Shown: positions 43,723-54,585 of the stretch, piece after piece
Numbering within the stretch: the first letter of the stretch is position 1
Layout of the letters: each line of letters starts with the position of its first letter
Origin: Pseudomonadota bacterium
GTDB lineage: Bacteria > Pseudomonadota > Alphaproteobacteria > Acetobacterales > Acetobacteraceae
Direction of reading: 5' to 3'
Assembly (NCBI GenBank): GCA_021798915.1
Contig: JAJZBM010000002.1
Coordinates: 62,001-126,000, forward strand
DNA length: 64,000 nt
Position numbers and translations under genes: made by a program
The notes under the pieces: model-generated
Told to the model about the DNA's origin: nothing
The model's input: only the letters and a program-made list of their open reading frames with translations
Databases searched by the model: none

Positions 43723-45432
43723 TCAGAACGTCTTGCCGGCGAGCAGCGTGAATTGTTCGGCCAATGGGCCGAGCGAGAGCGCAGGCATGAATTGCAGCCC
43801 ACCCATGATCACGATCACACCGCAGAGCAGCCCGACGAAAAGCGGCCCGTGAGTTGGAAACGTGCCCGATGACGGCGGCACTTTCACTTTTTCCGCGAGT
43901 GCGCCGGCGATCGCCAGCACCGGAATCAGAAACGCGAAGCGGCCGAGCAGCATGGCGATGCCGAGCGTGGTGTCGAGCCAGGCTGTGTCGGCGCTGAGCC
44001 CGGCGAAGGCGCTGCCGTTATTGCCGGTCGCCGAGGTGAAGGCATAGAGCATTTCCGAAAGCCCGTGCGGCCCGGCATTGCCGAGGGAGGCGGTGGCCGC
44101 CGGCATGACCAGCGAAAGTGCCGTGAAACCGAGGATCGCGAGCGGCAGGATCAAGACTGCGAGCATCGCGAGTTTGACTTCTTTCGCCTGGATCTTCTTG
44201 CCGAGATATTCCGGTGTCCGCCCGACCATGAGGCCGGCGACGAACACCGCGATGAGGGCGAAGATCAGCAAGCCATAAAGTCCCGAGCCGACGCCACCGG
44301 GCACGATTTCGCCAAGCTGGATCAGGAACATCGAGGTCATGCCGCCGAGCGGCATATAGCTGTCCAGCATCGCGTTCACCGCGCCACACGAGGTCGCGGT
44401 GGTGATGACGTTGAACAACACCGAAAGCGGGATGCCGAAGCGGAGTTCCTTCCCCTCCATGTTGCCCTGCGCGGGATCGACGCCGAGCGCGGTGAGCAGC
44501 GGATTGCCCGCCGCCTCGGCATGATAGGCGACGGCGATGGCGGCGAGGACGAAAACGCCGATCACCGCGAGCAGCGCATAACCCTGGCGCGCATCCTTGA
44601 CGATGCGCCCAAACGTGAAGGTGAGCGCGATGGGAATCAGGAACACCAGGACTGTCTCGAGAATGCTTGACCAGGCATTGGGATTTTCGAACGGGTGGGC
44701 GGAATTGGCGTTGAAATAGCCGCCGCCATTGGTGCCGAGTTCCTTGATCGCTTCCATGAAGGCAACCGGACCCATCGCAATGGTCTGCTTCATCCCTTCC
44801 AGCGTCGTCGCGTCGGCGTGGGTCGCGAGCGTTTGCGGCACCCCGAGCGCGACGAGCGCGATGCCGGCAAGGATCGCGATCGGCAGCAGGAGATAGAGCA
44901 CGATGCGCGTCAGATCGGCCCAGAAATTGCCGAGCGTTTTCATCCCGCCCGCGGCGAAAGCGCGCGCGATGGCGAGGGCGGCGGCAATGCCGGTCGCCGC
45001 CGAGACGAACATATGCGAGGTGAGGCCCCACATCTGGCTGCCGGGCGAAAGCGTCGTCTCGCCGCCATAGGCTTGCCAGTTGGTGTTGGTGACGAAGCTC
45101 ATCGCGGTGTTGAAGGCGAGCCGTGGTGACATCCCGGCGAGATGATCGGGATTGAGCGGCAGATAGAATTGCAGCCGCAGCATCGCGTACAGCATCAGGA
45201 AATGGAGCGCGTTGAGCAGAATGAGCGCAACGGCATAGCCCCGCCAGTCCATGCCGCGCCTCGGGTCGACGCCGGCCAGCGCATAAAATCCGCGCTCGAT
45301 CGGGGCGAGCACGGGATGGAGAAAACTCCGCTCGCCGGCGGCGATGCGGGCGATATGGATCCCGACCGGCCAGGCGGCGAACACGATGAGAGCGAGCACG
45401 AGCAAAATCTCGGCCCAGCCACTGATTGTCAT
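43723..45432 (-). CDS. kdpA: Potassium-transporting ATPase subunit A
   Basis: A 569-residue channel-like subunit of the KdpFABC pump. The four P-loops with the potassium selectivity regions are visible (TNTNWQAYGGE, ELGTNGGGYFNANSAHPFENP, ATSCGAVNAMLDS and ATGNNGSAFAG), and about 10 membrane helices are evident. It binds potassium for transfer to KdpB. Start at 45432 follows a gap of 12 bp after kdpF. Confidence 0.97.
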   Translation of the reverse strand: MTISGWAEILLVLALIVFAAWPVGIHIARIAAGERSFLHPVLAPIERGFYALAGVDPRRGMDWRGYAVALILLNALHFLMLYAMLRLQFYLPLNPDHLAGMSPRLAFNTAMSFVTNTNWQAYGGETTLSPGSQMWGLTSHMFVSAATGIAAALAIARAFAAGGMKTLGNFWADLTRIVLYLLLPIAILAGIALVALGVPQTLATHADATTLEGMKQTIAMGPVAFMEAIKELGTNGGGYFNANSAHPFENPNAWSSILETVLVFLIPIALTFTFGRIVKDARQGYALLAVIGVFVLAAIAVAYHAEAAGNPLLTALGVDPAQGNMEGKELRFGIPLSVLFNVITTATSCGAVNAMLDSYMPLGGMTSMFLIQLGEIVPGGVGSGLYGLLIFALIAVFVAGLMVGRTPEYLGKKIQAKEVKLAMLAVLILPLAILGFTALSLVMPAATASLGNAGPHGLSEMLYAFTSATGNNGSAFAGLSADTAWLDTTLGIAMLLGRFAFLIPVLAIAGALAEKVKVPPSSGTFPTHGPLFVGLLCGVIVIMGGLQFMPALSLGPLAEQFTLLAGKTF

Positions 45433-45444
45433 GGAAATAGCCTC

Positions 45445-45534
45445 TCAGATCAGATCTTCTGGCCGGATCAGCGCCCAGAGCAGATAGACGAACAAGGCGA
45501 GCGCGACGGCGCCGCCGAGAACGAGATCGAGCAT
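45445..45534 (-). CDS. kdpF: KdpF small subunit
   Basis: A 29-residue single-helix peptide, MLDLVLGGAVALALFVYLLW then ALIRPEDLI. The late Y-L-W-A-L-RPE motif is the usual KdpF ending. KdpF stabilises the Kdp complex in the membrane. It has only a weak ribosome-binding site and starts 3 bases after an upstream small ORF, so its translation may be coupled. Confidence 0.9.
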   Translation of the reverse strand: MLDLVLGGAVALALFVYLLWALIRPEDLI

Positions 45535-45537
45535 GGC

Positions 45538-45621
45538 TCAGATCCGTGCGCAGAAATCGGCATAGGCGATCATCAGCAGGATGCCGCCGGCGCCGAGAAC
45601 GATGAACACAACATCCAACAC
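45538..45621 (-). CDS. Small membrane peptide upstream of kdpF
   Basis: A 27-residue ORF beginning with GTG: VLDVVFIVLGAGGILLMIAY then ADFCARI. It is a single hydrophobic helix followed by a Y-A-D-F-C-A-R-I tail. GAGGAGG lies 5 bases before the GTG, an excellent ribosome-binding site, better than kdpF's. Similar short ORFs with a C-terminal Cys-Arg pair are found before kdpF in other proteobacteria as I recall, but they are rarely annotated. I infer an accessory Kdp peptide or a coupling leader for kdpF. Confidence 0.65.
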   Translation of the reverse strand: MLDVVFIVLGAGGILLMIAYADFCARI

Positions 45622-45660
45622 GCATCCCTCCTCGGGTTTGTTTCGCGAGCGTGTCAGGGT

Positions 45661-45687
45661 AATAAAAACCGACGTCAAAAAACGATA
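45661..45687 (-). promoter_or_regulatory. T-rich region upstream of the kdp operon (possible KdpE box)
   Basis: On the minus strand the sequence contains TTTTTTGACG and TTTTTATT within an AT-rich pocket 40-65 bases upstream of the first small ORF. E. coli KdpE binds a T-rich tract next to the -35 region; the resemblance is only in composition. Confidence 0.3.
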
Positions 45688-45728
45688 TGGCTTTTCGCGC
45701 CGGCGCATCAAAAACGCATAAAATCCCC

Positions 45729-48392
45729 TCAGGGTGCTGCGTTTTCGGCATTTCCCGGCGGAACGAGAGACAACCGTGCTTCGAGCACGTCGTCCTCGCC
45801 CGGCAGACGATGGAGCGAAAAACCGAGATGGCGGACGAAGGCGAGCATCGGCGCGTTATCGGCCAGGATCTGGCCGGTGATCTCGGTCATGCCCTGCCCG
45901 CGCGCCCAGCCGATGAGGCGGCGCATGAGATGGGCAGCCAACCCCTTGCCCTTCATGTCCGGCTGCACGATGATCGCGAATTCGCTGCTGTTTTCATCGA
46001 GTTCGCGGACCAGCCGGGCGACCGCGACGGTCTCGCCGGTGGTCGGGCGGACGGCGATGAAGGCGATTTCGCGTTGGTAGTCGATTTGCGTCATGCGGGC
46101 CATCTGCTCGGCCGCGAGGGTGCGCATCGGCGAGAAGAAGCGATAACGGATGTCTTCCGGAGAAAGGCGCTGGAAGAATGCGCCATGCGCCTCGGCGTCC
46201 TCGGGGCGGATCGGGCGGATCAGCAGCGTCTCGCCGCCGGCCGTCCAGGTCTCCTCGAGTTCGGCGGGATAAGGCGGGATGGCGAGTTCGGCCGCATGGC
46301 CGGCCGGGCGCAGCGTGAGCCCGGCGTCGCCGACCAGAACCCCCTCGCCATCGACGAACAGGGGATCGATGCGCAAGGTCGCGATCTCGGGAAAATCGAC
46401 CACCAGTTGCGAGACCCGTACCAGGGTTTCGGCGATGGCGTCGCTGTTCGCCGGCGGAAATTCTCGAAACGCGCCGAGCAGCGGGGCGATGCGCGAGCGG
46501 GCGATCAACGCATGCGCGAGTGGCAGGTTGAGGGGCGGCAGATCGACCACGCTTTCCCCGAGAAGGGCGCCGGCGCTGCCGCCGAGACCGAAGCCGAGCA
46601 ACGGGCCGAACACCGCGTCATCGCCGAGGGTGATCGCAAATTCGCGGGCGCGGCCGATCTGGCGTTGGACGAGAAAACCATGCGCGGGCGCCTGCCCGGC
46701 GGCCATCCGTTCGGCAGCGCGGATCACGGCGTCGGCATCGGCGAGGTCGAGCACGACGCTCGGCGCGCCGGGCTTGGTCGTGCGCCGGTGCTTGAGCGCG
46801 ATCGGGTAGCCGAGCATCGTCGCCGCCACCCCGGCATCCTCGGGGCTCGCTGCCGCCCGTGTCGGCACCACCGGCACATCATAGGCGGACAGCACCGCCA
46901 TCGCCTCGTCCTGCAGCAAAGCGAGGCGCCCGGCCAGGCGCGCCCTGGTGAAAACCTGCTTCGCGGTGGTGCGATCGGGGAGCAGGCGCAGCACGGTGCT
47001 CGGCGGCAATTCACGCGCCGCCTGGCGGTTGCGGCGATGCTGGAGGAGATGGTGAAACCCATGCACCGCCTGCTCGGGTGTCGCGAACACCGGCAATCCG
47101 GCATCGGCGAGGCGGCGGCGGAGCGGGGCAGCGGTGGTTTCGCCCATCACCGCGACCAGGAGCGGACGTTTGATGGCGCGCGCGCTGGCGGCGATATGGG
47201 TGGTCCAGGCCTCGTCCTCGGCCGGGCTCCGGCGTTGCTGGGGAGGCGCGAGAATGGCGAGGATGCCGCCGATCTCGGGGCAGGCGGCCAGACGCTCTAG
47301 CGCCGCGGTGAAGCGCGCCGGCGGGTCGAGGCCGATATAGAGCGGCTCGCGGGCGCCGCCCTGGCCGGTGAGTTCGTGCGGCAGTTGCCGCTCCAACGTG
47401 GCCCGGATGGCCGGCGGCAGCGGATGGAGGGGAATGCCGAGGCGGAGCGCCTCGTCCGCCGCCATTTCGCCGGGAGCGATGGCGGTGGTGACGATGGCGA
47501 GCGGCTCGCGGGGGAGGGGTGGCGCGCGGCTCAGGGTTTCGGCGGCGGCGAGCAGGTCTTCGAGCCGGTTGACGACCAGCAGGCCGCAACGCCGCCCGGC
47601 GGCGCCGAAAGCGGCTTCGGCCCCGACCCCGGGAGGCGCCCCGGGGATCGGCTGGGTCTCGCTCCCGGCATCGCGCAGCACGCCGCCGGCGCAGAGCGCC
47701 ACCACCGGGCGGAGGCGGGCGGCGGCGCGGGCGGCGGAGATGAAGGCGCGCGGGCTCTTGAGCCGGCGGATATCGAGCAGGATGGCGCCGGTCGCGGAGT
47801 CGCGCGCGAGCCAGTCCAACGTCAGACCGAAACCGATATCGGCATTGCCGCCGATGCCGACGATATGGGAGAAACCGACCCCGTTCGGCCCCGCCCAGTC
47901 GAGCACGGCGCGGCAGAGGGCGGCGGATTGCGAGATCAACGCGGTGCGCCCGGCCGGCACCGGCAGATGGCCGAGGGTCGCATTCAGCCCGAGCGCCGGG
48001 ATGGCGAGCCCGAAGGAGCCGGGGCCGAGCACCCGCACGCCGCTGGCCCGCGCCGCCTCGCGCAGCCCCGGCATCATCGCCGTCGCGATCACGACAAAGC
48101 AGCCGCGCGCGGCGAGGGCGCCGAGTACCGCGCGCGGGTCATCGAGCGGCGCCGCCAGAACCGCGACATCCGGCGGCGGGATTGCCGGGGGCGCGGCATT
48201 GGGCGGAGCTGGCTCCCGCACGAGGGCGGCGGCGTCGAGCGTTGTGATGCTTCCCGCGAAGCCGCCGGCGTGGAGATTGGCGAGCACCAGCGCCCCTTCG
48301 GCAGTCTCGGCGCCGAGCACGGCGATGCGCGTCGGGCGGAATAACCGCTCGGGGTGGAAGCGGTGGCGGGAGATGCGCGGCAGCCAGGACAT
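45729..48392 (-). CDS. NDP-forming acyl-CoA synthetase-like / GNAT fusion (protein lysine acetyltransferase type)
   Basis: An 887-residue protein: CoA-binding Rossmann domain (about 15-140), succinyl-CoA-ligase-like flavodoxin domains (about 150-450), ATP-grasp (about 480-700, including the PIALKHRRTTKPG region) and a C-terminal GNAT acetyltransferase (LLIRPIRPEDAEAHGAFFQRL to LRHLGFSLHRL, with acetyl-CoA loop VQPDMKGKGLAAHLM). This is the architecture of Pat/YfiQ, which acetylates acyl-CoA synthetases and other lysines. Whether the ACS-like half is active cannot be told from sequence. Starts with a clear ATG; it is alone on the strand upstream of kdpF. Confidence 0.88.
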   Translation of the reverse strand: MSWLPRISRHRFHPERLFRPTRIAVLGAETAEGALVLANLHAGGFAGSITTLDAAALVREPAPPNAAPPAIPPPDVAVLAAPLDDPRAVLGALAARGCFVVIATAMMPGLREAARASGVRVLGPGSFGLAIPALGLNATLGHLPVPAGRTALISQSAALCRAVLDWAGPNGVGFSHIVGIGGNADIGFGLTLDWLARDSATGAILLDIRRLKSPRAFISAARAAARLRPVVALCAGGVLRDAGSETQPIPGAPPGVGAEAAFGAAGRRCGLLVVNRLEDLLAAAETLSRAPPLPREPLAIVTTAIAPGEMAADEALRLGIPLHPLPPAIRATLERQLPHELTGQGGAREPLYIGLDPPARFTAALERLAACPEIGGILAILAPPQQRRSPAEDEAWTTHIAASARAIKRPLLVAVMGETTAAPLRRRLADAGLPVFATPEQAVHGFHHLLQHRRNRQAARELPPSTVLRLLPDRTTAKQVFTRARLAGRLALLQDEAMAVLSAYDVPVVPTRAAASPEDAGVAATMLGYPIALKHRRTTKPGAPSVVLDLADADAVIRAAERMAAGQAPAHGFLVQRQIGRAREFAITLGDDAVFGPLLGFGLGGSAGALLGESVVDLPPLNLPLAHALIARSRIAPLLGAFREFPPANSDAIAETLVRVSQLVVDFPEIATLRIDPLFVDGEGVLVGDAGLTLRPAGHAAELAIPPYPAELEETWTAGGETLLIRPIRPEDAEAHGAFFQRLSPEDIRYRFFSPMRTLAAEQMARMTQIDYQREIAFIAVRPTTGETVAVARLVRELDENSSEFAIIVQPDMKGKGLAAHLMRRLIGWARGQGMTEITGQILADNAPMLAFVRHLGFSLHRLPGEDDVLEARLSLVPPGNAENAAP

Positions 48393-48540
48393 GGCGGCAT
48401 TCTAGCTCATGTTGCGCTGCAATACACGCTGGCACGTCACGCGGTCGCTCGTCGCGTCGGGCGGGGGACGAGAAGCACGGGAGACGGTCAGTTTTTTTCG
48501 GGCCGGGCGATTTTTTGCTTGCCCGGGCGGGGAGAGGAGT

Positions 48541-48608
48541 CCTATCTAAGCGGCGGAGAGGCGCGCCAAACCGTATGGGTGCGCTTGTGCCCCGGTTTAG
48601 CCGATAGG
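48541..48608 (+). other. Base-paired 5' element of the Nramp leader
   Basis: CCTATC (48541-48546) pairs with GATAGG (48603-48608), enclosing AAACCG/CGGTTT (48578-48583 and 48593-48598 approximately) and a GC-rich interior. The element lies at the start of the long interval before the transporter and is followed by a CCGAA-agg-TTCGG hairpin. It does not show the conserved strings of the M-box or manganese riboswitches. Confidence 0.4.
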
Positions 48609-48661
48609 GTTTCGATCCGAAAGGTTCGGGCCGGTCGTGTCAACTTTCTGTCAGGGAACAC

Positions 48662-48793
48662 ATGAACCCGCGATCTAGCAGCCAGCCTACGGAGAGCGAT
48701 AGTTGGCGCTTTGCGCCTGCTTTGCCGCCGTCGGATTGGTCCACCGCTCGGGATCCGCATGTGACCGTTAAGGTGCCAGCGCTCCGCCGCTGA
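48662..48793 (+). CDS. Leader ORF 1 upstream of the Nramp-like transporter
   Basis: A 43-codon ORF starting ATG eight bases after TCAGGGAA, product MNPRSSSQPTESDSWRFAPA then LPPSDWSTARDPHVTVKVPA and LRR. It is rich in Pro, Ser and Asp and ends with a basic triplet. Its stop is 13 nt before a hairpin that hides the ribosome-binding site of the next ORF. Magnesium-transporter leaders in enterobacteria also contain Pro/Asp-rich peptides whose translation controls readthrough, so a similar attenuation role is possible. No homology is claimed. Confidence 0.5.
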   Translation: MNPRSSSQPTESDSWRFAPALPPSDWSTARDPHVTVKVPALRR

Positions 48794-48806
48794 CCCACAA
48801 CGGCCA

Positions 48807-48847
48807 GGCCTCCCGGGCTCGAGTTTCCACTTGAGCAAGAGGAGGCC
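48807..48847 (+). promoter_or_regulatory. Hairpin sequestering the ribosome-binding site of leader ORF 2
   Basis: GGCCTCC (48807-48813) pairs with GGAGGCC (48841-48847), and inside it GCTCGAG (48817-48823) pairs with CTTGAGC (48830-48836) with one G-U. The 3' arm is exactly the GAGGAGG that would start the second ORF at 48851. The hairpin begins 13 nt after the stop of ORF 1, so a terminating ribosome would melt it. Confidence 0.7.
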
Positions 48848-48850
48848 GTG

Positions 48851-49057
48851 ATGGCCGTCTTTACGTTTCCTCGTCAGTTCTCCGCGCCTGGTGATCGCCG
48901 GGCCGAGAGGCATGGCTTCGTCGTCATGGCGGCGCTCCCGCGCCGGCGCGCCGCGCGTCCGGCGCTCGGTCTTTGTTGGCAGCGCGACGGCGAAGGCCGG
49001 TTGCGCGCGCAATGGGGTCTCGCCGCTCCGCGACCGCGAGCCTCCCTGGTCGATTGA
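48851..49057 (+). CDS. Leader ORF 2 / small Arg-rich protein
   Basis: A 68-codon ORF starting at the ATG five bases after GAGGAGG; an in-frame GTG sits one codon earlier. The product runs MAVFTFPRQFSAPGDRRAER, then HGFVVMAALPRRRAARPALG and LCWQRDGEGRLRAQW. The pattern RPALxLCWQRD-GxGRLxxxW looks like a conserved short-protein tail seen in other alphaproteobacterial small ORFs as I recall. It ends 139 nt before the transporter start. It could be a second leader peptide or a genuine small protein. Confidence 0.5.
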   Translation: MAVFTFPRQFSAPGDRRAERHGFVVMAALPRRRAARPALGLCWQRDGEGRLRAQWGLAAPRPRASLVD

Positions 49058-49072
49058 ACGGCCGCGAGCGAC

Positions 49073-49124
49073 CGCCTTGCCGTATCCCACCTCTCCCGTG
49101 CCAACCGGGCGATACGGCAAGGCG
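49073..49124 (+). promoter_or_regulatory. 14-bp perfect stem in the Nramp leader
   Basis: cgccttgccgtatc (49073-49086) is exactly complementary to gatacggcaaggcg (49111-49124), with a 24-base loop containing cacctctccc. It begins 16 bases after leader ORF 2 ends and ends 72 bases before the transporter ATG. No T-run follows, so it is not a simple terminator. Confidence 0.75.
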
Positions 49125-49196
49125 CCTGCCGCCGGCTCCGCCGCCGCTTGTCCCCCTCAGCCAGACGCCGTCTTGGCGCAGAACGGACCAGAGACC

Positions 49197-50831
49197 ATGA
49201 CCCACATCGATAGGCTCGATAACCTGACCAAGGAGGCGGTGCTCGATTCCGCCCATCTCGGCGACATCACCGGCGCCCTCGGCACCATAAAGCGTGATGA
49301 CGACCAGCCCCGGCGCAGCGTGTTTGCGCGGCTCGCGACCCTGCTCGCGGTCATCGGTCCCGGCCTCATCGTCATGGTCGGCGATAACGATGCCGGCGCC
49401 TTCGCAACCTATACCCAGGCTGGCCAGACCTATGGTTCGACCCTGCTCTGGACGATGCTTCTGCTCATTCCCGTGCTCTATGTCTGCCAGGAGATGGTGG
49501 CACGGCTCGGCGCGGTCACCGGGGTTGGCCATGCGCGGCTGATTTTCGAGCGTTTCGGCCGTTTCTGGGGCGCGTTCAGCGTCATCGATCTCTTTCTTCT
49601 GAACGGGCTCACCATCATCACCGAGTTCATCGGCGTCAGCCTGGCGATGGATTATTTCGGTCTCTCGAAGCCACTCGGCGTGTTGATCGCGGCGGGGCTG
49701 ACCATCGCCGCCGTCAGCACCGGCAGTTTCCGGCGTTTCGAGCGTTTCGCGGTGCTGCTGTGCTTTGGCAGCCTGGTGATCGTGCCGATCGTCATCGTCG
49801 CCCATCCGCCGCTTGCCGTCATGGCCCATGATCTCGTGGTGCCGGGACTGCCGCAGGGCAAGCTTTCCGATATCATGCTGCTGATCATCGGCCTCGTCGG
49901 CACCACGGTCGCGCCCTGGCAGCTTTTTTTCCAGCAGAGCTATGTCGTCGACAAGCGCCTGCGGCCGCGTTTCATGGCCTATGAGCGGGCGGACATGGCG
50001 CTCGGCATGGTGTTCACGCAGATCGGCGCCATCGTGATGATCGCCTTGGCTGCCGCGGCGTTCGCGGGGAAGCCGGAATTCGGCAATTTCACCGATGCTG
50101 GCGGGGTCGCGGCCGGGCTCGCCAAATATGTCGGGCGCTGGGCGGGTGATCTGTTCGCGATCGGCCTCGTCGATGCGGCGCTGCTTGGTGCCGCGGCGGT
50201 CGGGCTTTCCACCGCGTATGCGTTCGGTGATACCTTGTCGGTGCGTCACTCCCTGCACCGCAAGCCGAATGACGCGCTGGGCTTTTATCTGATCTATGGC
50301 GCGCTGATCGCTCTCTCGGCGGTGATCGTGCTGATCCCGGGCTCGCCGCTCGGGCTGATCACCGAAGGCGTGCAGGTGCTGGCCGGCGTGTTGCTGCCGA
50401 GTGCGACGGTATTTCTGCTGCTCCTCTGCAATGACAAGGCGGTGCTCGGCCCGTGGGTGAACGGCAAGTGGCAGAACCTGATCACCGGGGTGATCGTTGG
50501 CGTTCTGGTTCTTCTCTCGCTCATCCTCACCGCTGCCGTGGTTTTCCCGGACATCAGCGACCGGGCGATCGTGCTGATACTGGGCGGGGGGACGGTGCTT
50601 GGCATCCTTGCTTATGCTTTGGTGCGTTTGTTCGCCAAGCCGGCGCGGGCGGCGCAGGCGGCGGCGGTGCCCGGCGATCGCGACCATTGGCGGATGCCGC
50701 CGCTTGCCGATCTCGCGCCGCTTCGCCTGTCGGCGGCAGCGCGGTTTTGGATGGGAACCTTGCGGCTTTATCTCGTGGTTGCGGTCGCGCTGGTGATTTA
50801 TTCCGTGGTCAAACTCGCGATCGGATCTTAA
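49197..50831 (+). CDS. Nramp-related divalent metal transporter
   Basis: A 544-residue, 11- or 12-helix member of the Nramp superfamily. A cytoplasmic N-terminus (DSAHLGDITGALGTI) is followed by helix 1 with GDNDAGAFATYTQAG, where canonical Nramp proteins have DPGN before the QAG: here the Asn ligand is Ala. In helix 6 GTTVAPWQLFFQQS replaces the canonical M-P-H-N pattern, so the metal-selecting Met is Ala. Those substitutions have been described for Nramp-related magnesium transporters as I recall, so Mg2+ is a reasonable substrate (inference). The ATG at 49197 has a weak ribosome-binding site, consistent with control by the leader. Confidence 0.9.
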   Translation: MTHIDRLDNLTKEAVLDSAHLGDITGALGTIKRDDDQPRRSVFARLATLLAVIGPGLIVMVGDNDAGAFATYTQAGQTYGSTLLWTMLLLIPVLYVCQEMVARLGAVTGVGHARLIFERFGRFWGAFSVIDLFLLNGLTIITEFIGVSLAMDYFGLSKPLGVLIAAGLTIAAVSTGSFRRFERFAVLLCFGSLVIVPIVIVAHPPLAVMAHDLVVPGLPQGKLSDIMLLIIGLVGTTVAPWQLFFQQSYVVDKRLRPRFMAYERADMALGMVFTQIGAIVMIALAAAAFAGKPEFGNFTDAGGVAAGLAKYVGRWAGDLFAIGLVDAALLGAAAVGLSTAYAFGDTLSVRHSLHRKPNDALGFYLIYGALIALSAVIVLIPGSPLGLITEGVQVLAGVLLPSATVFLLLLCNDKAVLGPWVNGKWQNLITGVIVGVLVLLSLILTAAVVFPDISDRAIVLILGGGTVLGILAYALVRLFAKPARAAQAAAVPGDRDHWRMPPLADLAPLRLSAAARFWMGTLRLYLVVAVALVIYSVVKLAIGS

Positions 50832-50880
50832 CTCGCCGCCGATGTCCCGGGGCAGTGCCAGCGGCACTGCCCCAACGGCT

Positions 50881-50920
50881 AAAAGTTTTTGGTTCTTTTT
50901 CCCAAAAAGAACCCCTTTCT
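50881..50920 (+). repeat. Interspersed hairpin repeat, copy 3 (terminator-like)
   Basis: aaaagtttttggttcttttt, then cccaaaaagaacccctttct: a GGTTCTTTTT / AAAAAGAACC stem with a short loop and a T-rich tail, 49 bp after the stop of the Nramp-like gene, in the sense orientation. It probably terminates that transcript. See also copies at 31174 and 33980. Confidence 0.85.
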
Positions 50921-50927
50921 ACTCTCT

Positions 50928-51377
50928 CTACTCTTCTTCCAAATCTCCCCCCAAATCCCTCGCCATGATGAGCGCGTCATCACCGTTCGCGTAATAGCGC
51001 GCGCGGCGGCCGGCAGGGCGAAACCCTGCCGCGTCGTAGAGCGCCCGGGCCGCGAGGTTGCGCGCCGCGACTTCCAGATAGAGACGGCTGGCCCGGTGTT
51101 CGCGCGCCGCGGTGATCGCCACGGCGAGCAGGGCGCGGGCGAGACCTTGGCGGCGGTAGGGCGGGGCGATGGCGAGGGTGAGGATTTCGGCCTCGCCGGC
51201 GAGCGCTCGGAGCAGGATCATCCCGGCGGGGGGTGTGATCAGGGCGATGGTGCCGGGGAGGGTGAGTTGGGCCGCGATCGCTCGCGCATCCCAGCGTTCC
51301 GGCTCGGGGAAACTCGTCGCGTGGAGCGCGGCCAGGGCCGCGGCGTGGGCGAGGCTCGCGCGGATGATGGTGGTCAT
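50928..51377 (-). CDS. rimI: Ribosomal protein S18-alanine N-acetyltransferase
   Basis: A 149-residue GNAT enzyme. The acetyl-CoA loop is IAPPYRRQGLARALL, and the C-terminal LEVAARNLAARALYDAAGF...RARYYANGDDALIM matches RimI, with the R-x-x-YY motif. It overlaps tsaB by 4 bases (ATGA), a conserved pairing in bacteria. Confidence 0.9.
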   Translation of the reverse strand: MTTIIRASLAHAAALAALHATSFPEPERWDARAIAAQLTLPGTIALITPPAGMILLRALAGEAEILTLAIAPPYRRQGLARALLAVAITAAREHRASRLYLEVAARNLAARALYDAAGFRPAGRRARYYANGDDALIMARDLGGDLEEE

Positions 51378-52018
51378 GCTGGCGGCGGGCGGGCGATCGC
51401 GGCAATCGCTGCCGGCGGCTCAGCATAGACCGGCTGCGCGGGATGGGGCGGGGCGCCGGCGTCCGCGCGCCGGGCGGCGGCGGCGGCGACCAGCCGGGCG
51501 GAAGGATCGCGGAGCCCGGTGCAATGCGCGCGGATGCCGGCCGCATCGAGTTGTGCCGCGACCAGCGCCTCGGCCTCGCCGGCGAGGGTGACCGCTTCCG
51601 GCGGCGAAGGCAGTGCGGTGAGGTCGAAGCGGCCTTGCGTGCCATCCAGTCCGTCGATGAACACCCCGCCGAGGCGATGCGGCAGCGCGACCCAGAACAC
51701 GCCCTCGGGCGGTGCCGGCAGGGCTTCGGCGAGGGTTTCGGCGAGGGTGATGCCGGTGAGCGCGGCGCCCTGCCCGAGCGCGAAACCCTGCGCCAGGGCG
51801 ATCGCGGCGCGGAGGCCGGTGAAGCCGCCCGGCCCGATCATCACCGCGACGAGATCGATCCGTCCCGGCGCCGCCCTGAGTGTTTCGGCGAGCAGGGTCG
51901 CGAGTACCGTGCTTTGCCCCCGCGCCGCCGCCGCGTGCCGCTCGGCGCGGAGTTGGCCATCCTCGCTCACCGCGACCGAGCAGCCGGCGAAAGCGGCGTC
52001 GAGCCCGAGAATCCGCAT
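51374..52018 (-). CDS. tsaB: tRNA threonylcarbamoyladenosine biosynthesis protein TsaB
   Basis: A 214-residue ASKHA-fold subunit of the t6A synthesis complex. The start MRILGLDAAFAGCSVAV and the GPGGFTGLRAAIALAQGFAL motif are TsaB hallmarks. The C-terminal portion is Ala/Pro-rich and shorter on conserved residues, as usual. It lies 11 bp after infC on the same strand and overlaps rimI. Confidence 0.9.
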   Translation of the reverse strand: MRILGLDAAFAGCSVAVSEDGQLRAERHAAAARGQSTVLATLLAETLRAAPGRIDLVAVMIGPGGFTGLRAAIALAQGFALGQGAALTGITLAETLAEALPAPPEGVFWVALPHRLGGVFIDGLDGTQGRFDLTALPSPPEAVTLAGEAEALVAAQLDAAGIRAHCTGLRDPSARLVAAAAARRADAGAPPHPAQPVYAEPPAAIAAIARPPPA

Positions 52019-52029
52019 CCCGGCCCCGC

Positions 52030-52566
52030 TCAGCGTGGGCTCAGCACCATCACCATCTGGCGATTTTCCAGGCGCGGCATCTGCTCGACTTTGGTTGCGG
52101 CATCCATATCGGTGCGGATGCGCTCCAGAACCTTGACGCCGATTTCCTGATGCGCCATTTCGCGGCCGCGGAAACGCAAGGTGACCTTGACCTTGTCGCC
52201 CTCCTCGATGAAGGATTTCATGGCACGCAATTTTACCTGATAGTCGTTTTCGTCGATATTCGGCCGGACTTTGACTTCTTTGATTTCTATGACTTTTTGC
52301 TTTTTCTTGGCTTCGTTTTTTTTCTTCTGAATTTCGTATTTATATTTGCCGTAATCGAGAATTTTTACTACCGGCGGATCGGCGTTGGGGCTGATTTCCA
52401 AAAGATCGAGGCCGACGGCATAGGCCCGGGCCTGCGCCTCGCGGGCGCTCATCACGCCGGCCATCTCTCCGTTCTCGTCGATCAGGCGGACCTGGGGGTT
52501 GCGGATCTCCTCGTTGACGCGGGGGCCGTCGCGCGTCGGCGCGGCGGGCAGGGGGGGTCTGGCGAT
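52030..52566 (-). CDS. infC: Translation initiation factor IF-3 (ATC start)
   Basis: A 178-residue IF-3 reading ARPPLPAAP, then [10 protein letters not shown], the linker [18 protein letters not shown] and the C-terminal domain [21 protein letters not shown]. It keeps ribosomal subunits apart and proofreads the start codon. Homology begins well upstream of the first in-frame ATG (52464). A TGA lies two codons before an ATC at 52566, and GAGGAG sits 8 bases before that ATC. The start is therefore inferred to be ATC, in line with the rare AUU-type start of infC in E. coli. Confidence 0.9.
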
Positions 52567-52647
52567 GGGTCACTCTCCTCTTGCCGTGACAGGGATGGGC
52601 ATTGCAACGTGCCGAGTTTTGCCGGACCCGGCGGCGGCGATCAAGCT

Positions 52648-54585
52648 TTACTGTCGCGATGCTGGCATGAGATCGGGGGGTGTCGCCTCACCGGCGAGCC
52701 GCGCAATAGCCTCGTCGAGCGCCAGCACCTCTTGCGCTGCGCCGCCGAGCCGGCGGAGGGCGACGGTGTTGCTCTCCGCCTCCTTCCGCCCGACGACGAT
52801 GAGCACCGGCACATGGGCGACGCTATGGGCACGTACTTTGGCGTTGATCTTCTCGTTCCGGGTGTCGCATTCGACGGTGAGCCCGGCGGCGCGGAGCCGT
52901 GCCGCCACCGTCTCGGCATAGGCATCGGCGTCCGAGACGATGGTCGCGACCACCGCCTGCACGGGGGCGAGCCAGAGCGGGAAGCGCCCGGCGTGATGCT
53001 CGATCAGAATGCCGAGAAAGCGCTCGAAACTGCCCAAAATCGCGCGATGCAACATCACCGGGCGATGGCGGGCGCCGTCTTCGCCGACATAATCGGCATC
53101 CAGCCGCTCGGGCAGCACGAAATCGACCTGCAAGGTGCCGCATTGCCAGTCGCGCCCGATCGCATCGCGTAGCACGAATTCGAGTTTCGGGCCGTAGAAC
53201 GCGCCCTCGCCAGGGTTTAGCGTATACGCGACGCCGGCGGTCGCGCAGGCCTCGCTGAGCGCCCGTTCGGCGCGGTCCCAGACGGCGTCGCTGCCGGCGC
53301 GGATCGCGGGGCGGTCGGAAAATTTCACCCGGAAATCGGGGAAGCCGAAATCACGATAGATCTCGCCGAGCAGGGCGACGAAACGCACGGTCTCGGGCGC
53401 GATCTGATCCTCGGTGCAGAAAATATGCGCATCATCCTGGGTGAAGGCGCGCACCCGCATCAGGCCGTGCAACGCGCCCGACGGCTCATAGCGGTGGCAG
53501 GCTCCGAATTCGGCCATGCGCAGCGGCAATTCGCGGTAGCTGCGCACGCCCTGGCGGAAAATCTGCACATGGCAGGGGCAGTTCATCGGCTTCAGGGCGA
53601 GCGTCTTTTCCTCTTCCTCGACGGTCGCGATGAACATGTGCTCGCGGAATTTCTCCCAATGCCCCGAGGCTTCCCAGAGTGCCCGATCGACGAGTTGCGG
53701 CGTGCGCACCTCCTGATAGGCGTTGGCGTCCAGTTTCCGGCGCATATAGGCCTCGACGCGGCGATAGAGCGCCCAGCCCTTGGGATGCCAGAAGATGCTG
53801 CCGACCGCTTCCTCCTGGATATGGAACAGATCCATCTCGCGTCCGAGCCGGCGATGGTCGCGCCGCTCGGCCTCCTCGATCTGGGTGAGATAGGCGTCGA
53901 GTTCCTTCCGGTCGCGCCAGGCGGTGCCGTAGATCCGGCTCAGCATGGCGTTGCGGTGATCGCCCCGCCAATAGGCGCCGGCGACCTTCATCAGCTTGAA
54001 GGCGTCACCGACATCGCCGGTCGCGCGCATATGCGGGCCGCGGCAGAGATCGACCCATTCACCCTGGCGGTAAAGGGTGATCGTTTCGGTTTCCGGGAGG
54101 TCACGGATGATCTCGGCCTTGTAGCTCTCGCCGCGCGCGGCGAAAAACGCGATCGCTGCGTCCCGCGCCCAGACCTCGCGCACGAAGGGGGCGTTGGCGG
54201 CGATGATCTCGCGCATTTTGGCTTCGATCTTCGGGAAATCCTCGGGCGTGAAGGGCTCGGGGCGGGCGAAATCGTAATAGAAGCCGTTATCGATCGCCGG
54301 GCCGATCGTCACCTGGGTCTCGGGATAGAGCGCCTGCACCGCCTCGGCGAGGACATGGGCGGCGTCATGGCGGATCAGGGTCAGGGCTTCCTCATCGCGC
54401 CGGGTCACGAAGCGGATGGCGGCGTCCTCGGCGAGCGGGCGGGAGAGATCGCGGGTCTCGCCATCGACGACGACCGCGAGCGCGGCGCGCGCGAGGCCCG
54501 GCCCGATGGCGGCGGCGAGTTCGGCACCGGTCGGGGCCGCCTCGAACCGGCGGATCGAGCCATCGGGAAGGGTGAAAGCGGGCAT
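52648..54585 (-). CDS. thrS: Threonine-tRNA ligase
   Basis: A 645-residue class II aminoacyl-tRNA synthetase: N-terminal TGS domain ([14 protein letters not shown]...), editing domain with [18 protein letters not shown], catalytic domain with NCPCHVQIF and [14 protein letters not shown], and the C-terminal anticodon domain including [11 protein letters not shown]. It starts at the ATG 54585 and is followed by infC, the standard thrS-infC order. Confidence 0.97.

Follow-up and report, generated by a model that had tools for sequence, protein, structure and literature searches.

Ribosome-based sensing of cation shortage is best known in enterobacteria, and leaders of the mgtA type act through Rho-dependent attenuation. 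In translational attenuators of the erm type, which are induced by drugs, a ribosome stalled on the leader frees a sequestered Shine-Dalgarno sequence (SD). The system closest in its logic to the one considered here is the Salmonella mgtQ-mgtB leader, in which, by experimental evidence, the upstream ORF (uORF) mgtQ governs a choice between a helix designated 2:3 and a helix designated 3:4 that hides the ribosome-binding site (RBS), and mgtB encodes a Mg2+ transporter (PMC8092293). The mgtQ ORF is 8 codons long, has a 1:2 stem and sits between two genes (PMC8092293). Cis-acting RNA also controls an Nramp-related transporter in Clostridium, where an M-box (RF00380) is reported upstream of nrmT (PMC4072509).

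We examined the interval 48541-49196 of the window, by which we mean the whole 64,000-nucleotide stretch of Acetobacteraceae DNA that was analysed. It lies between a minus-strand gene (45729-48392), whose product has CoA-ligase, ATP-grasp and acetyltransferase domains, and an Nramp-family gene starting at 49197. Its features are as follows.

48519..48548, plus strand: probable promoter of the leader transcript (TTGCCC, 18 nt, TATCTA)
48653..48657, plus strand: SD of ORF1, AGGGA; an SD-like string occurs in 58 of 61 leaders
48662..48793, plus strand: ORF1, 43-codon leader peptide MNPRSSSQPTESDSWRFAPALPPSDWSTARDPHVTVKVPALRR; open in 61 of 61 leaders, at 38-46 codons
48682..48739, plus strand: helix P1 within ORF1, joining 48682-48688 to 48733-48739; in the window one of its pairs is broken
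48705..48717, plus strand: helix P2 within ORF1 (GGCGC 48705-48709, GCGCC 48713-48717)
48746..48753, plus strand: strand 2, GCUCGGGA, ORF1 codons 29-31; its partner in the ON state that we propose is 48811-48818
48777..48792, plus strand: helix P3 at the ORF1 stop codon, the weakest helix
48808..48846, plus strand: RBS-sequestering hairpin B (3:4), with GCCUCC 48808-48813 and GGAGGC 48841-48846; outer and inner stem covary
48851..49057, plus strand: ORF2, 68-codon short protein with motif CWQRDGEGRLRAQW, counted from ATG; GTG at 48848 is also possible
49073..49124, plus strand: 14-bp perfect stem in the spacer between ORF2 and the transporter (arms 49073-49086 and 49111-49124), not conserved
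49197..50831, plus strand: NRMT-like Nramp-family transporter (PF01566, E 2.4e-78); closest solved structure 7QIA, EleNRMT

We consider it rather probable, judging from comparison of related loci, that this interval is a leader-peptide translational attenuator in which shortage of Mg2+ or a related cation may relieve sequestration of an SD. Like mgtQ-mgtB, it would place the choice between 2:3 and an RBS-hiding 3:4 under a uORF, but the uORF has 43 codons, a further short ORF comes after it, no 1:2 stem is supported, the transporter belongs to another family, and there is no obvious sequence similarity. It resembles the Clostridium nrmT M-box in being a cis-acting RNA ahead of an Nramp-related transporter, but it has no M-box match, and it combines SD sequestration with a uORF whereas the M-box combines an aptamer with a terminator. 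Release of the SD by a stalled ribosome is proposed here as in the erm-type attenuators, with no known drug link. The best reading is that the leader belongs to no named RNA family and follows the logic of mgtQ-mgtB with unrelated sequence. A literature search showed no description of this leader among the titles and abstract openings listed; as subscription journals lay mostly outside that search, it does not prove absence. A cmscan of window positions 44000-54000 against Rfam, with matches counted to E 5, returned three, of which none was to M-box, Mg_sensor or yybP-ykoY and none lay inside 48541-49196, in keeping with the sequence-only reading, which had seen no known M-box or manganese riboswitch; with no Rfam match in the leader, we rejected a known riboswitch as its identity.

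The transporter matched 7QIA (EleNRMT) with an E value of 4.9e-53, the other chains among the matches listed having E values of at least 3.4e-19, so that EleNRMT ranks above MntH. EleNRMT is described as a transporter of Mg2+ without coupling, for which it depends on Thr 224, and of Mn2+ as well, and DxxG-TxxA/T is given as the ion-site signature of the NRMTs (PMC8806188). The helix-6 TT opposite Thr 224 is kept in the window transporter, but the full signature is not: the window has DAGA (DxxA) and TTVA (TxxA) where EleNRMT has DAGG and TTIA. Because DxxA stands in place of DxxG we call the protein NRMT-like and have not filed it as an NRMT, while noting that the NRMT (magnesium) branch is the nearest to it by sequence within Nramp. 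The DxxA counts against our reading, and so does the NrmT of A. capsulatum, which has been reported as a likely Mn transporter; a gene with an MgtE domain has also been reported adjoining nrmT (PMC4072509).

To follow the leader across genomes we used R1, a covariance model that draws on 40 leaders and covers their first 122 nt, applied at E 0.001 with strict filters. R1 was present in 38 of 299 genomes of the order and in 7 of 385 genomes of the class. Within the order, all 23 of the close transporter homologues (at least 62% identity, the window's own included) have R1 upstream, with 119-505 nt from the end of R1 to the start of the transporter match. A second Nramp branch (37-41% identity) adds ten further places with R1; the remaining places of that branch and of more distant Nramp branches in the 299 genomes gave no R1 match. 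Altogether R1 precedes an Nramp gene in 33 of the 38 positive genomes, the other five being two weak matches and three species of one genus that have the leader and ORF2 and no transporter match at E 1e-30. In the class sample, R1 stands at six of eight close transporters, a recognisable leader being absent at L138 and L139, while the seventh class match lies at a contig end, adjoining a KUP-like gene and a PF02583 repressor, with no transporter in view. Comparison thus shows the leader to be tightly associated with this transporter clade. Copies before the transporter include one in Mesorhizobium sp. AR07 (R1 E 2e-26) and those on two Acidiphilium plasmids (E 7e-23).

Counting against our reading, a few leaders precede other genes, namely a SLOG gene on a Rhizobium contig (L063), an EipB-like gene (L018) and a CarboxypepD_reg gene (L024). 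The Rhizobium case is made less odd by Methylobacterium, where the genes after a diverged leader are hisE, the transporter, one for a Na/Pi cotransporter and one with a SLOG annotation. ORF1 of that leader begins MNPRSRPSSSIGEGR and has 40 codons and a weak SD, the R1 match is weak (E 0.19), and both the hairpin (-18.9 kcal/mol) and the ORF2 motif are legible. In a genome of the same genus (G062), the leader has a second copy, L125, with ORF1 at 2797 on the minus strand, and this too lies before a CarboxypepD_reg-domain gene.

Near relatives of the transporter gene we found MgtC genes in Acidiphilium cryptum (second branch), Paraburkholderia fungorum and, by annotation, Leifsonia, and genes with MgtE_N and CBS domains in Leifsonia and Cellulomonas; only Acidiphilium among these four carries R1, and the window transporter itself has neither neighbour. 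Together with the conservation of ORF1, the covariation of the helices and the NRMT-like kinship, these MgtC and MgtE_N neighbours support the likeness to leader-peptide control of magnesium transporters that had been suggested from the sequence.

ORF1, its AGGGA and ORF2, both ORFs having been claimed beforehand at 43 and 68 codons, are present and conserved, and conservation in orthologous upstream regions, on which the sequence-only reading had staked itself, extends to the hairpin. Of 200 same-family genomes put to a protein search, 21 (in 14 of 102 genera) have an ORF1-like peptide, with the consensus start MNPRSSSQP.ES.S.R.... At the DNA level there are two conserved blocks, one running from the ORF1 SD through codon 16 and beyond, the other comprising the hairpin before ORF2. 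No in-frame stop precedes the end of ORF1 in any of 40 aligned leaders, as against 40 of 40 in the +1 frame and 39 of 40 in the +2 frame, and the spacing from AUG to strand 2 preserves the frame in 37 of 40, counts that come from related and hence not independent sequences. Among codons 2-16 of 60 leaders, differing codons have a mean BLOSUM score of 1.36 versus 0.28 (sd 0.38) in column shuffles, values as high being reached in 2 of 1000 shuffles by BLOSUM and 19 of 1000 by synonymy. Codons 24-41 are without such a signal, values as high being reached in 53 and 177 of 500 shuffles, and we rejected the idea of ORF1 as a full-length conserved protein, selection being seen in codons 2-16 only. 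On comparison, then, the leaders support ORF1 and its frame, and have the uORF, open throughout and nearly always with an SD-like string, of an mgtQ- or erm-type attenuator.

The nucleotides at codons 3 and 4 are nearly invariant (CCG in 39 of 40 leaders, CGA in 40 of 40), although 13 of the 40 rows were gathered by a pattern that demands these CCG/CGA letters and 27 by protein searches. The 13 were kept by eye from 45 pattern matches in genome contigs for having MxPRSS..E..S.R and the second block, the remainder being repeats of genomes already included or unrelated chance matches; L030-L032, weak matches with in-frame stops, were excluded, and L115 was left out of the codon test for an inserted codon and out of the partner-swap test for want of GGAG. 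This near-invariance exceeds what the peptide needs, and along with the covariation of P1 and P2 it would suit a translated riboswitch, in which a metal ion or metabolite would bind directly to the RNA within ORF1 (CCGCGAUCUAGC, P1, P2) and that RNA would move strand 2, ORF1 translation merely modulating the outcome. We regard this as unlikely. Diverged leaders change the codons of residues P3, R4 and S5 silently, with CCC or CCA at codon 3 and CGT at codon 4 (L123), or drop the motif and keep the ORF (L117), and the AUG, the SD-like string and the frame, all needless for an aptamer alone, are retained.

The alternative pairings can be followed in the same alignment, where P1, P2, P3, hairpin B and a long-range helix A all show two-sided changes (40 leaders, A3). 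Helix A (2:3) joins ORF1 codons 29-31 to the 5' arm of hairpin B, and A excludes B. Helix 2:3 is paired in 90% of cells with double changes at 5 of 8 pairs; the figures are 90% and 3 of 7 for P1, 83% and 3 of 5 for P2, and 73% and 5 of 6 for P3. For 2:3 and 3:4, neither the covariation score nor the number of two-sided pairs was reached in any of 500 shuffles, and slid controls were 24-49% paired versus 85-86% for the true register; the number of further pair types lay within the shuffles for both states (71 and 126 of 500). By parsimony on a tree of 32 transporters, 2:3 underwent 6 two-sided changes and 12 breaks, and the hairpin 9 and 34; columns 104/196 went from CG to UA three times. Columns 195-196, in the internal loop of hairpin B and unpaired in B as drawn, track changes in ORF1.

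When the 2:3 strands were paired as duplexes, the own partner outdid the swapped-partner mean for 48 of 61 leaders. It did so for 16 of the 21 that the alignment does not contain, among which are close kin of leaders that it does. A swapped partner did as well in 33.5% of cases on average, a shuffled one in 20%, and only 10 of the 61 leaders came out at or below 2%. An alternative helix between uORF and hairpin, as expected of an attenuator, is thus supported by covariation, with partner swaps moderately favourable. The hairpin claimed to sequester the RBS of the second ORF lies at 48808-48846, its 3' arm being the ORF2 SD, and comparison, with folding, bears out this SD sequestration as it does both alternative helices. 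A stem 1:2 (CCGCGAU with codons 28-31), part of which RNAalifold proposes on A2, did no better than shuffles, 27.5% of which were as good.

Folding of the isolated RNA strongly favours the OFF state in these models, a fold mimicking a stalled ribosome included. Hairpin 48808-48846 alone is predicted at -24.1 kcal/mol, and forcing the ON state (2:3) in the window gives -83.3 versus -97.5 kcal/mol, a cost of about 14 kcal/mol. Over the folds of 40 leaders the central 2:3 pair has a mean equilibrium probability of 0.03 and the SD a mean accessibility of 0.08, and when RNA is freed as by a ribosome stalled near codon 16 mean SD accessibility is 0.12, versus 0.07 for the hairpin alone. As the equilibrium is so strongly OFF, a co-transcriptional switch placed by the ribosome would be required, like that of known attenuators, and this need for 2:3 to form during transcription is the weakest step of the attenuator reading, our confidence in which is slightly lowered by the duplex and stalled-fold controls. 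A 691-nt segment was not significantly more stable than its shuffles (z -1.26, 20 shuffles), and so the case rests on comparison.

We infer the following course of events. Transcription would begin near 48555 and ribosomes, which we expect to translate ORF1 in the cell, would enter it. Those reaching codon 30 and beyond would mask strand 2 (codons 29-31), leaving strand 3 to pair with the ORF2 SD (strand 4), so that ORF2 and the transporter would be poorly translated (OFF). Were ribosomes instead to stall, slow or drop off in the first 16 or so codons (MNPRSSSQPxESxSRR), strand 2 would be free as strand 3 emerges, 2:3 could form during transcription, and the SD would be open (ON). The trigger may be low Mg2+, or something else that makes ribosomes slow on ORF1, and the device probably serves to take up more Mg2+, or more of a related divalent cation, at times when its shortage slows translation. 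The transporter, whose AUG at 49197 has the weak RBS that had been noted for it, would be translated by reinitiation or coupling from ORF2, and in some relatives the freed SD would serve it directly.

That last arrangement is seen in L015 and L019, where the start codon after the hairpin is the transporter's own, and in L007, L022 and L025 there is a 4-nt overlap between ORF2 and the start of the transporter. In 27 further relatives the ORF2-transporter spacer is 25-185 nt, and in the window it is 139 nt, predicted at -59.7 kcal/mol; neither its length nor its structure is conserved among relatives. The layout supports control of the transporter by the freed SD, directly or via coupling.

A long, structured spacer of this kind could instead be exposed to Rho when ORF1 and ORF2 are little translated, giving attenuation of transcription, and a uORF-dependent, presumably Rho-mediated attenuation is on record for another alphaproteobacterium, S. 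meliloti (PMC12218461). We think this very improbable here, as the spacer is not conserved in length or structure and the conserved hairpin targets an SD, which in two relatives is that of the transporter itself; a scan of the window also gave no intrinsic-terminator-like site, a result with which Rho is still compatible. The 14-bp stem claimed for this spacer is indeed present and perfect, but it has no counterpart in seven relatives, whose longest perfect repeats in the 120-150 nt after ORF2 are 5-8 bp, and it lies outside the conserved device. We rejected it both as a conserved element and, from the same scan, as a terminator.

A motif W-x6-GRLxCxW recurs in ORF2, and a W..G..W pattern, chosen post hoc, occurs in 22 of 38 versus a shuffled mean of 0.36. 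The window ORF2 matched no family in Pfam or NCBIfam, the Methylobacterium ORF2, annotated as a protein, had no Pfam match, and the ORF2 of L074 had no plasmid match. In one genus (L124 from G100, G157 and G584), ORF1, hairpin and ORF2 are kept with no transporter match at E 1e-30, and there ORF2 may be a functional product. The recurrent motif, the annotated Methylobacterium protein and the genus that keeps leader and ORF2 while lacking a transporter match could all be accommodated if ORF1 and ORF2 were plain small protein genes of the operon and the hairpin set their coupling with no sensing. This seems to us quite unlikely, given that the second half of ORF1 is free of coding signal and that pairing of codons 29-31 with internal-loop bases of the hairpin would be pointless without a switch.

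Upstream of the attenuator so read, TTGCCC (48519-48524) and TATCTA (48543-48548) align with TTGA-TATA-type boxes upstream of homologues, and a permissive promoter pattern occurs in 49 of 61 leaders against a shuffled mean of 2.4. A stricter sigma-70 scan gave no promoter anywhere in the window. From the alignment, 48519-48548 is the probable promoter of the leader transcript, and a start near 48555 is expected. The 5' paired element CCTATC/GATAGG that had been proposed for the leader shares bases with the probable -10 box, so it is probably not transcribed whole, and it falls outside the conserved device.

In several alphaproteobacterial copies a PF02583-type repressor gene (metal/formaldehyde type) is divergent from the leader, assigned by Pfam in L114, L131 and L132, by similarity in L116 and by annotation in L144-L146, in an incomplete sample of upstream neighbours (20 loci, the two longest ORFs of each). 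By a permissive count with no chance control, 19 of 61 leaders have dyads that overlap the promoter. Given these repressors and dyads, leader transcription is probably also under another signal, and the repressors count against our reading. Beyond the divergent repressor lies an annotated KUP potassium transporter in L144 and, in L114, a gene that we take to be one. In the window a KdpA-like gene (43723-45432), presumably a potassium-pump subunit, is one gene away from the leader, and KUP genes occur near some relatives; a potassium link for the leader, from these neighbours, is conceivable. The annotated repressor of Acidiphilium cryptum (ACRY_RS20075, 516 nt, 4628-5143 of L146) runs antisense across ORF1, whereas that of A. 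multivorum measures 276 nt; the A. cryptum annotation probably sets the start of the gene too far upstream.

The same transporter clade in the Burkholderiales has leaders of another make, with several short ORFs upstream, one starting MPDPEP or M(P/N)D.DS; the MNPRSS ORF of the window type was not seen there. When R1 was applied to seven plus five loci beyond the leader's main range, matches were at chance level in Burkholderiales (E 0.65 or worse) and Actinomycetota. Eight Burkholderiales loci show a TTG-start frame (M)D.CSSR(P/S) in seven, a second ORF M(P/N)D... in six and an ORF of 45-49 residues before the transporter in six. The conserved short ORFs of L147, L148, L152, L154-L156 and L158 read (M)D.CSSRPSN..., M(P/N)DSDS or MPDPEP..., and MNFGLLLSQLPHV...-like; the MPDPEP starts, at two of the loci, presumably resemble that of MgtL.

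A further reading, possible but doubtful, is that the leader is a hybrid sensor, one RNA segment being read twice, as a peptide whose first 16 residues govern the behaviour of the ribosome and as a folded RNA in which strand 2 works the switch, and coupling a shortage of divalent cations felt by the ribosome to the Mg2+ transporter and to a small protein, ORF2, that would act together with it. If so, the Burkholderiales leaders with their unrelated short ORFs would be a repeated, convergent solution. Should the signal of the attenuator be magnesium, ribosome-based sensing of cation shortage would occur in the Alphaproteobacteria as well, with other sequences. How this branch of transporters is regulated is known for few organisms; it gains here a recurrent, unannotated candidate control region, along with two short ORFs that annotation omits or labels hypothetical, and the named pairing partners make the switch testable by a handful of point changes.

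Elsewhere in the window, a minus-strand ORF at 52030-52464, which we take to be IF3-like, starts at an internal Met and its open frame extends upstream; its true start may be a non-AUG codon farther upstream.
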